DNA of 33,776 nt from Spartobacteria bacterium. GTDB taxonomy: Bacteria > Verrucomicrobiota > Verrucomicrobiia > Chthoniobacterales > UBA6821. The stretch is taken from contig CANKJN010000016.1 in assembly GCA_947482345.1 (NCBI GenBank), positions 1-33,776 on the forward strand. The letters run 5' to 3'. Positions 7,295 through 9,965 of this stretch are shown here, piece by piece. Position numbers and translations under genes: made by a program. Under the pieces are notes generated by a model. That model worked only from the letters and a program-made list of their open reading frames with translations. It was not told the DNA's origin and ran no database searches. Position 1 is the first letter of the stretch. Every line of letters begins with the position of its first letter.

Positions 7295-7368
7295 TGGCTG
7301 CCTCGCATGGATTCGAACCATGACAAGCAGATCCAGAATCTGCTGTGCTACCGTTACACCACAAGGCA
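7295..7368 (-). tRNA. tRNA-Gln (anticodon CUG)
   Basis: A full cloverleaf reads on the minus strand. The acceptor stem is TGCCTTG/CGAGGCA with the U1-A72 pair and G73 discriminator typical of tRNA-Gln. The D arm is TGGTGTAACGGTAGCAC. The anticodon stem is GCAGA/TCTGC around the loop TTCTGGA, giving anticodon CTG. A four-base variable region follows, then the T arm CATGG-TTCGAAT-CCATG. The CCA end is encoded (7295-7297). It decodes CAG, a preferred Gln codon in this GC-rich genome. It lies between valS and the GNAT gene. Confidence 0.96.
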
Positions 7369-7414: not shown

Positions 7415-8023
7415 TCAAGACTTAGCTTCGAAAGGCTTGGAAAACGTGACGGATTCCGCAACGCCGCCGAATTTCGGATAGACATGGCGGGCGGCCATCG
7501 TCTTGGCCCGGGTGATACCCGAAGCGACGGTGATTCCGTTTCCCCTCAACGCCTCCAACGAGGAATGCAGAAGGCGGGAACCGATGCCACGATTGCGGTA
7601 TTCCATCAGGACGGCGGGACCGCTGACGAGATGGGAGGAGGCCTCGGGGGAGGGATCGAGCAAGGAGGCCGCGATCAACCTGCTTCCCTTCGGCATCACC
7701 AGGCACAGCGGATCTCCCTCATTGAAGATCCTGGCGACCTCGGCCTTGAGATGCTGTTCGACCATGGCAAACGAATCGTTCCAACCGGAATCCATCGAAA
7801 GTGAAAGAAGAAGTACCCCGAGCACCTCATCCGCCTCCTCACGGTTGGCGGGCCTGATCAGATCGGAACCCGCGGGAGCAGTTCCCGTCTTGTCGGTCTG
7901 CCAGGTAAAACGGAGCCACGGGGAAGAACCCTGGGCGGCCAAACCCGCGGCCGCATCGGGCGAACGGGGAACGGATCCGGGAATTGCGGGAATTGCAAAA
8001 GGAAGTGAATGACTGGATGCCAT
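7415..8023 (-). CDS. GNAT-family N-acetyltransferase
   Basis: Predicted acetyl-CoA-dependent acetyltransferase of unknown substrate, 202 residues. The acetyl-CoA-binding motif A is clear near the C-terminal third (VLMEYRNRGIGSRLLHSSLEAL, with the R-x-x-G-x-G loop). The next strand and helix (GITVASGITRAKTMAARHVYPKFGGV) fit the fold. About 50 N-terminal residues are low-complexity and outside the domain, so the true start may be internal; the ATG at 8023 has a pyrimidine-rich leader and no Shine-Dalgarno sequence. It is transcribed toward tRNA-Gln, with 46 bases between them, and away from purF. No neighbour hints at a substrate. GNAT assignment is fairly secure, specific function is not. Confidence 0.8.
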   Translation of the reverse strand: MASSHSLPFAIPAIPGSVPRSPDAAAGLAAQGSSPWLRFTWQTDKTGTAPAGSDLIRPANREEADEVLGVLLLSLSMDSGWNDSFAMVEQHLKAEVARIFNEGDPLCLVMPKGSRLIAASLLDPSPEASSHLVSGPAVLMEYRNRGIGSRLLHSSLEALRGNGITVASGITRAKTMAARHVYPKFGGVAESVTFSKPFEAKS

Positions 8024-8080
8024 CGTGAAGGGCGGGAAGCGAACGGCAAAAACCTCCGCGGGTCAACGGATTTTTCAATG

Positions 8081-8354
8081 GGAACCGCTGATTAAATCCC
8101 ATGAAGGCCACTGAAGACCATTTGCTGATTTTTGAAGGCGCGAGTGCTGGGCGATACCCGCAGCGGTCTCGCCCGAGCGAGCAACGCCGCAAAAATCGAC
8201 AAATGGCCTCAGCCCTTCGGGTTGCGGAGATAACAGGCCGGGGGCTGCGTTGGCTTCGCGGTTACAGCCCACTGCGGGGATGCGCCCGCGAAGCCGCCTT
8301 GCCCGCGGCCCATTCTTTCCGAAACGGCCTCTATGCGATTTAATCAGCGGCTCC
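8081..8354. repeat. 274-bp nested palindromic element, MITE-like
   Basis: The 409-bp gap between the GNAT gene and purF (8024-8432) is mostly this element. Its ends (8081-8109 and 8326-8354) are inverted copies matching at 25 of 29 positions, sharing the core CCGCTGATTAAATC. Inside lie a second inverted pair (8118-8140 with 8185-8206, sharing CCATTTG and GATTTTTG) and a third (8252-8261 with 8286-8295, GGCTTCGCGG). No protein of credible family is encoded in it, and no clear target-site duplication is visible. It could be a non-autonomous mobile element, a folded RNA or a paired-terminator structure; I cannot tell which. Confidence 0.6.
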
Positions 8355-8432
8355 AAAAGATCGCCAACACACGGCCACAAAGGACTCTAAAGGACGCTTT
8401 TTCCAAATCGTGTTTGATGACCGGGCCAAAAG

Positions 8433-9965
8433 ATGAAAACCTTTGGTGTCCGGCACGCCGGATTCCTTTCACCCGAGCATAACTCTCCAACCCTGCGTTC
8501 CTTGTCCCAGTCCCATCGTCCCAAACATGAATGCGGCGTCTTCGCCGTCTACGGCCACAAGGACGCGGCCATGCTGACCTACTACGGCCTCTTCGCGCTG
8601 CAGCACCGGGGTCAGGAGAGTGCCGGCATCGCCTCAAGCAGCGGCGACGGAAAGGTCTTCCGGCTCCACAAGGGGATGGGCCTGGTCTCGCAGGTCTTCG
8701 CCCAAGAAAACCTGGAATCGCTCGCCGGCACGCGTGCCATCGGCCATGTCCGCTATTCGACGACCGGATCGAGCACCCTTCTCAACTCCCAACCGCTCGG
8801 CGTCGACACGGCACGGGGACAACTCGCCATCGCCCACAACGGAAACCTCGTCAACGCTTCCGCCCTCAGGAACGAGCTTGAGAACCGCGGATCCATCTTC
8901 CAGACCACGGTCGACAGCGAGATCATTCTCCACCTCCTTGCCCAACCCGACGAAACGATGGGCGGGCCGATCGGCGCGCTGCGCCGTCTCGAAGGGGCCT
9001 TTTCCGTGGTGGTCATGGGTGAAAACGAGATCATCGGCTTCCGCGATCCCAGCGGTCTGCGCCCCCTTTCCCTCGGCAAGCTTGATAACGGATGGGTCCT
9101 CTCCTCCGAAACCTGCGCCTTCGACCTGATCGGGGCGACCTTCGTCCGCGACCTCAAGCCGGGGGAGGTTGTCGTGATCGACGATCAGGGAATCCGCTCC
9201 GAGTTCCCCTTCACCGAGTCGCGCGAGGCCTTCTGCATCTTCGAGTATGTCTACTTCGCGCGACCCGACAGCCGCCTGCGCGGCATCACCGTCAGCAAGG
9301 CACGCATCAATATGGGCCGCGAACTGGCACGTCTCCACCCCGTCGAGGCCGACGTGGTCGTGCCCGTGCCCGACTCCGGCATCTATGCCGCGCTCGGCTT
9401 CTCCGAGGAGCTGGGGATTCCCTACGACCCTGCCTTCGTCCGCAACCACTACATCGGCCGCACCTTCATCCAACCGACCCAACTCATCCGCGACTTCAAC
9501 GTCCGGGTGAAGCTCAACCTCATCGGCGAGTCGGTGAAGGGAAAGCGCGTCGTGGTCGTCGACGACTCCGTCGTGCGCGGCACGACCGCCAAGGCGCGCG
9601 TGGTGAATCTCCGCGAGGCCGGCGCCAAGGAGGTCCACCTCCGCATCAGCTGCCCTCCGCACCGCCATGCCTGCTACTACGGCATCGACTTCCCCGATCC
9701 CGAGAAGCTGATCGCCAACCAGCAGACCCATCAGGAGATCTGCGACTACCTCGGGGCCGACAGCATCGGCTACCTTGATGTCGACGGGATGGTGCGGGCC
9801 ACGGGCCTCGAAAAGAACTCCTTCTGCATGGCCTGCTTCAACGGCGACTACCCGGTTCCCTTCGACGCCGCCTTCGACAAGCTGATCATGGAGCGCCGCA
9901 AGGGAAGCGCCCAACTCCTTCCCGACCAGAGCGCGCAACCCCCGCTCTTCCCCCACAAATCCTGA
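8433..9965 (+). CDS. purF: Amidophosphoribosyltransferase
   Basis: First committed step of purine synthesis: PRPP plus glutamine gives phosphoribosylamine. An N-terminal Ntn-hydrolase glutaminase domain begins at the nucleophile Cys34 (HECGVFAVYGH), followed by a phosphoribosyltransferase domain with the PRPP loop VVVVDDSVVRGTT. Cys268, Cys414, Cys465 and Cys468 (contexts EAFCIFEYVYFARPDS, HACYYGID, CMAC) sit where Bacillus-type PurF ligates its 4Fe-4S cluster, so this is the cluster-containing, self-processing class. The ATG at 8433 gives a 33-residue propeptide, whereas Bacillus uses 11. An in-frame TTG at 8502 would give MSQSHRPKHE before the Cys and may be the true start. purM follows after 37 bases on the same strand. 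Confidence 0.96.
   Translation: MKTFGVRHAGFLSPEHNSPTLRSLSQSHRPKHECGVFAVYGHKDAAMLTYYGLFALQHRGQESAGIASSSGDGKVFRLHKGMGLVSQVFAQENLESLAGTRAIGHVRYSTTGSSTLLNSQPLGVDTARGQLAIAHNGNLVNASALRNELENRGSIFQTTVDSEIILHLLAQPDETMGGPIGALRRLEGAFSVVVMGENEIIGFRDPSGLRPLSLGKLDNGWVLSSETCAFDLIGATFVRDLKPGEVVVIDDQGIRSEFPFTESREAFCIFEYVYFARPDSRLRGITVSKARINMGRELARLHPVEADVVVPVPDSGIYAALGFSEELGIPYDPAFVRNHYIGRTFIQPTQLIRDFNVRVKLNLIGESVKGKRVVVVDDSVVRGTTAKARVVNLREAGAKEVHLRISCPPHRHACYYGIDFPDPEKLIANQQTHQEICDYLGADSIGYLDVDGMVRATGLEKNSFCMACFNGDYPVPFDAAFDKLIMERRKGSAQLLPDQSAQPPLFPHKS

Follow-up and report, generated by a model that had tools for sequence, protein, structure and literature searches.

A 274-bp palindromic element before purF in a Spartobacteria genome, likely an IS5-type MITE, contains a paired hairpin module that recurs between other ends

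Introduction

Prokaryotic MITEs, of which Chunjie and QMITE2 are examples, are defined in the accessible part of PMC10969869 by their size, their ends and their direct repeats. Another class of short repeats, the GTAG/CGTC REPs, consists of intergenic palindromes that occur in many phyla, and O. terrae (Verrucomicrobia) is given as rich in GTAG repeats in the accessible part of PMC3733652. Here we describe a folded, gene-less element located upstream of purF in a Spartobacteria bacterium (assembly GCA_947482345.1, contig CANKJN010000016.1, positions 1 to 33,776); the whole stretch of 33,776 nucleotides that was analysed is referred to as the window.

Results and Discussion

A first, sequence-only reading of the window had described a 274-bp element made of nested inverted repeats, and its coordinates turned out to be exact, as positions 8081 and 8354 are the very ends of a repeat family whose copies we compared (Table 1). 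The 29-nt terminal arms are complementary at 25 of 29 positions (86%), as had been claimed, and the two inner inverted pairs were likewise confirmed by arm pairing, one of 20 nt (8115-8134 with 8190-8209, 85%) and one of 19 nt (8252-8270 with 8277-8295, 79%). Most of the region can indeed fold: the 274 nt reach -147.8 kcal/mol on the plus strand (z -9.1) and -164.3 kcal/mol on the minus strand (z -9.9), and 0 of 200 shuffles were as good on either. That the element carries no gene agrees with the 0 Pfam families found for the two overlapping ORFs tested, at 8075-8380 (-) and 8101-8343 (+). It lies between divergent genes, as the same reading had it, a GNAT acetyltransferase gene on one side and purF on the other, the latter being followed by an AIR-synthase-type gene. 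A tRNA gene occurs near the acetyltransferase gene, at window positions 7298-7368 (-).

Table 1. Coordinates of the element before purF, its parts and its surroundings (window positions, except for the two rows that refer to L001, the window locus)
Feature	Position	Strand	Evidence or remark
Complete copy of the likely MITE, 274 bp	8081..8354	+	commonest size class of the family
Left terminal inverted repeat, GGAACCGCTGATTAAATC...	8081..8109	+	17/18 bases identical to right end of the G004 IS5-family element
Right terminal inverted repeat	8326..8354	-	arm pairing and family ends
Arm A, hairpin module	8117..8207	+	R3 module read on the - strand, 8128-8197
R3 match to arm A	L001 1548-1617	-	22.8 bits, E 0.002-0.004
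Small hairpin separating arms A and B	8210..8224	+	predicted folds
Arm B, inverted second hairpin module	8219..8326	+	R3 core 8237-8308
R3 match to arm B	L001 1657-1728	+	87.5 bits
Left flank with conserved spacer motif GGTCAACGGATTT, without target duplication (AATG)	8061..8080	+	
Right flank (AAAA...) up to conserved motif CCAAATCGTGTTTGA upstream of purF	8355..8417	+	
purF (glutamine amidotransferase / phosphoribosyltransferase), neighbour	8433..9965	+	
GNAT acetyltransferase gene, other neighbour	7415-8023	-	

The element belongs to a repeat family. In the window's own genome (G000, a draft of 2.36 Mb in 125 contigs), at least 40 copies were found, the first 40 of 53 matches being distinct places with 75-100% identity, a lower bound on the copy number since 40 of 137 first-look candidates were scored. 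The search for the ends that the sequence-only reading had proposed as a check was equally positive: allowing up to 2 mismatches, we counted 89 forward and 84 reverse occurrences of the 18-base end (173 in total), whereas the same pattern read backwards gave 0 and 0, and the family end is present in 12 of the 16 genomes of the genus. Of 58 genomes chosen as relatives, its own among them, 18 gave matches to the element. No match was found in plasmid records for the three elements that were searched.

When ends carrying no more than 4 substitutions were paired within the fetched loci, 88 end-to-end stretches resulted, a set that still counts one row (L296 457-483) that is the left end of an insertion sequence (IS) and not a MITE. 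Their lengths are 273-276 bp in 52 and 307 bp in six, the rest spanning from 27 bp (with others of 54 bp) up to 577 bp; at 274 bp the element falls under the MITE size limit (<500 bp), which one member, that of 577 bp, exceeds. The four flanking bases are identical on both sides in 36 of the 88 (shuffled mean 11.9, maximum 23 in 2000) and differ in the other 52, and when both flanks have a central TA, identity rises to 34 of 52 (shuffled mean 14.2, maximum 25). The commonest flanks are CTAA, CTAG, TTAG and TTAA, which indicates 4-bp YTAR target duplications at the level of the family. The window copy is itself without target duplication, as its flanks are AATG and AAAA.

Some members depart from the common form. 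Minimal forms of 27 bp (L205 1492-1518) and 54 bp (L195, L196 and L222 1501-1554) are built almost entirely from the two ends; each of them has a YTAR flank on one side or both, and they could be internal-deletion products that still moved. Where longer forms were read (L197, L200, L202, L212, L221 and L224), they contain the short form and, in addition, hairpin-like inserts, including a unit of about 34 nt with TTGCTTCGCATCC that is found twice in L202; this gives the impression of growth by the nesting of palindromes. From position 1501 of L198 onward, a copy of the end gives way after about 40 bases to unrelated sequence, which may be another insertion sequence.

When the purF locus was compared among 15 congeners, as the sequence-only reading had suggested for the empty site, the spacer was found without the element in 14, the fifteenth locus (L263, genome G002) being uninformative. 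The insertion before purF is specific to the window's species. The spacer motifs GGTCAACGGATTT and CCAAATCGTGTTTGA, conserved in seven aligned congeners, flank the site and are both intact in the window; even with the element subtracted, the window spacer exceeds that of those seven by about 22 bp. A copy that sits between two conserved motifs and leaves them undamaged might have been taken over as a control element of purF, acting as a spacer, an insulator or a relief of supercoiling between divergent promoters. We consider this quite unlikely, given that the insertion is missing in nearly all congeners and that a sigma-70-type scan of positions 7950-8480 gave no promoter-like site. A position between genes is the rule for the family as a whole: according to a simple codon-usage gene finder, 36 of 37 classifiable copies of G000 are intergenic (42 elements minus three at contig edges and two with genes on one side only), for comparison with a coding fraction of 0.87 in the window (22 predicted genes). 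The corresponding figure in congeners is 42 of 45, one copy being inside a gene and two having a gene on one side only.

A candidate for the motor of the family was found in a congener (G004), where a 1233-bp element (L296 457-1689) is flanked by a TTAA duplication and contains an ORF of 325 amino acids. Its ends differ from the family end pattern by 2 mismatches on the left and 1 on the right, the right end thus sharing 17 of 18 bases. The protein matches the IS5 transposase model NF033581 (E 1.7e-102) and PF01609 (DDE_Tnp_1, E 1.3e-32), and it is well known that IS5 elements favour YTAR targets. Relatives of this transposase occur in three of the 16 genomes of the genus: the gene is intact in G004, G009 has several pieces of it, most of which lie at contig ends, and G001 has pieces with stops. 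Near-identical IS5-type ends were also seen at L294, L295 and L297-L300 (G004 and G009), most of them at contig ends; these are probably a collapsed multicopy IS.

The best explanation is that the element is very probably a non-autonomous IS5-type transposon, that is, a MITE, as the sequence-only reading had guessed. The family occurs in many copies whose ends are exact, it shows target duplications and empty sites, and a congener holds an IS5-family element whose ends match. As judged from these ends, the MITE probably relies on the transposase of an IS5-type element, which would bind its ends of about 18 bp and move it in trans by DDE chemistry. No match to the G004 transposase was found in the assembly of G000, so the family may be stranded there, or its source may lie in an assembly gap; in a draft of 125 contigs such an absence is weak evidence. 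Four PF01609 transposases of G000 were considered as the source and rejected, as no such ends are near any of them. The interior of the partner IS has nothing detectable in common with that of the MITE and no recognisable module, which argues that the MITE interior is not a remnant of this IS.

What the interior consists of became clear from covariance models of the two arms. Each model matches the other arm on the opposite strand (L043: E 2.3e-8 and 4.8e-8), and the element can therefore be described as an end, a hairpin module, the same module inverted, and an end. A model of the central hairpin (R3) finds both arms of the window copy, at 87.5 and 22.8 bits. In genomes of another family, only the middle part is matched, within elements that are again mostly 270-276 bp long and have different ends (TAGTGTACCGTCTCC..., AGTGTCCTGTC...). 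We compared 14 other end types with those of the window without gaps, and they agree in 4-9 of 17-18 positions. Elsewhere in the order and the phylum, and in other lineages, the module is thus found as one copy or two, enclosed by ends that are unrelated.

The model of arm B (R1) matched nine of 387 genomes of the window's phylum at E 1e-4 (a rough value, as the calibration of the models was short), two of them in the genus and seven in other families. Several of these matches, not all of which were checked for flanking inverted repeats, are again palindromes of 269-276 bp with yet other ends, two kinds of which coexist in G281. Among 50 genomes reached via named records, R3 was positive in two, Desulfosarcina widdelii PP31 (5 matches), which belongs to the Thermodesulfobacteriota, and a Rhodospirillaceae MAG, named after its record title. 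It was then found in eight of 297 genomes in the phylum of the former and in eight of 299 in that of the latter, the two starting genomes included; all three phylum-wide counts are lower bounds, because 10 or 16 first-look candidates were scored per genome. Around the match, outside the model, the inverted repeat was stronger than at every random-place control of the same locus in 17 of 24 loci, and in a second set it passed the same comparison in nine of 11. Two loci below their control (L332 and L342) nonetheless have long inverted ends. The folded middle therefore recurs inside small elements with different ends in at least two further phyla, where most of these elements are about 160 bp long, contain one module and have 3-bp TNA duplications.

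Twenty single-module elements had ends that could be placed, 19 of them measuring 156-167 bp and one 173 bp; they were picked for clear ends and are not a random draw. Their 3-bp flanks are identical in 13 of 20 (shuffled mean 6.2, a value this high being reached by 2 of 5000 shuffles), and TNA is the sequence of 34 of 40 flanks, a target type that other IS5 subgroups are known to use. One of the end types, f5, occurs 119 times in G025 and 83 times in G051 with up to 3 mismatches (control 0). For these other lineages no mobilising transposase was identified, the nine ORFs beside f5 ends being ordinary genes or without assignment. A 24-base string of the module had 0 matches in viral contigs.

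The stems of the module show strong covariation, another check that had been proposed. Across the 52 copies that make up the 274-bp class, both members have changed in 25 of 78 pairs (12.1 in shuffles), and the fraction of pairing cells is 97.7%, whereas sliding the partners brings it down to 44.7% or less. A wide alignment of the module (52 rows, 51 distinct), which was fitted to the structure and so favours pairing, and in which related rows are counted many times, gave 90.5% of cells pairing and 159 cells changed on both sides, against 45.4 in shuffles. Its internal-loop columns GCGTTG and CGCCTTG are common to most rows, and mean conservation is about equal in paired (0.68) and unpaired (0.70) columns. 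The locus is neither single-copy nor unconserved, nor does it lack compensatory changes, three features that the sequence-only reading had named as speaking against an element.

Such a pattern could arise if transposition had spread a folded RNA gene or RNA element, with one transcribed strand whose structure is selected, and the strong fold, the compensatory changes in the stems and the loop motifs conserved across phyla all fit this view. So does the orientation of the G000 copies of at least 240 bp, which point with codirectional flanking genes in 18 cases and against them in four (n=22, p 0.004); however, the bias was not reproduced in congeners (13 versus 8, n=21, p 0.38), the pooled count being 31 versus 12 (p 0.005). 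For the 58 pairs that the two strands predict independently of each other, there are 32 G-U-type and 21 A-C-type cells, and in the wide alignment they number 22 and 21. As the former barely exceed or equal the latter, no strand appears to stand out as would be expected of an RNA. Moreover, the two arms are inverted copies, so that the same module can be read on either strand, and Rfam searches of the window, of the element alone and of 11 loci returned no relevant family. An Acido-Lenti-1 RNA was seen at L333 2572-2617 (-), near an element of another family. We regard the RNA explanation as unlikely. Of the overall interpretation given by the sequence-only reading, the MITE stood while the folded RNA was left without specific support, and the shared interior module was not visible to that reader.

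The covariation seems to point instead to DNA-level causes, namely folded or cruciform DNA, or correction of one arm by the other. Palindromes are known to self-correct, and it is possible, though doubtful, that the covariation has no selective meaning, the arms being corrected by template switching during replication and the widespread module being an old MITE whose ends have diverged. The apparent lack of a strand signature would be expected under this scenario, as would the fact that end variants mostly agree between both ends of one copy. Arm-to-arm correction explains the stems but not the conserved loops: GCGTTG and CGCCTTG are preserved across lineages while the stems vary, which copying between arms would not achieve. 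Divergence of the ends, for its part, is hard to reconcile with duplications that differ in kind, 4-bp YTAR in one case and 3-bp TNA in the other.

The interior of a MITE is usually regarded as filler that the parent transposon left behind. In this case, a folded interior is found more widely than the ends by which each family is supposed to be defined. The most likely reading is that the module would be a cis element working at the DNA level and helping small elements to persist or to move, with selection acting on its folded shape and its loop motifs to maintain it, and that over time it would have been joined to different transposon ends. We tentatively go further and hypothesize, as a possibility that we would not yet bet on, that the module of about 70 nt is the unit of selection, carried between end pairs (4-bp YTAR, 3-bp TNA) and among at least three phyla as single (about 160 bp) or inverted double (about 270 bp) MITE cores, because its folded DNA might recruit a widely conserved host factor or promote single-stranded transposition intermediates. 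If this is true, the module would be a general-purpose mobility helper, and gene-less elements could use many transposases. A module that helps mobility would supply a missing part of how such elements come to outnumber their parents, and this can be tested.

Comparison with known systems

A search of the literature by titles and the starts of abstracts, with subscription papers mostly outside its reach, returned nothing on this MITE family or on the module, and strings of the module in paper texts gave no match in any paper on bacterial repeats, as judged by titles and abstract starts.

The element shares with the GTAG/CGTC REPs, as far as these are described in the accessible part of PMC3733652, an intergenic position, a palindromic structure and an occurrence in many phyla. 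A palindrome of the REP type, mobilised by a RAYT tyrosine transposase, would also fit the high copy number and, in that source, the abundance of GTAG repeats in O. terrae. However, the element is 274 bp long against 20-40 bp for a REP, its ends read GGAA...TTCC instead of a GTAG or CGTC tag, target duplications are present in its family, and the partner with the same ends is an IS5 element, so that size, ends, duplications and type of transposase all differ. We set the REP-type palindrome aside as very improbable.

The IS5-family IS (NF033581, L296 457-1689) resembles the MITE by 17 of 18 bases at the right end and by its TTAA duplication, which fits YTAR, but it is 1233 bp long, carries a transposase gene and has an unrelated interior. 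The prokaryotic MITEs in the accessible part of PMC10969869 are, like our element, shorter than 500 bp, intergenic and strongly folding, with terminal inverted repeats and direct repeats. Unlike the MITEs described there, the element has as its interior two inverted copies of a hairpin module, which is found again with unrelated ends in other phyla.
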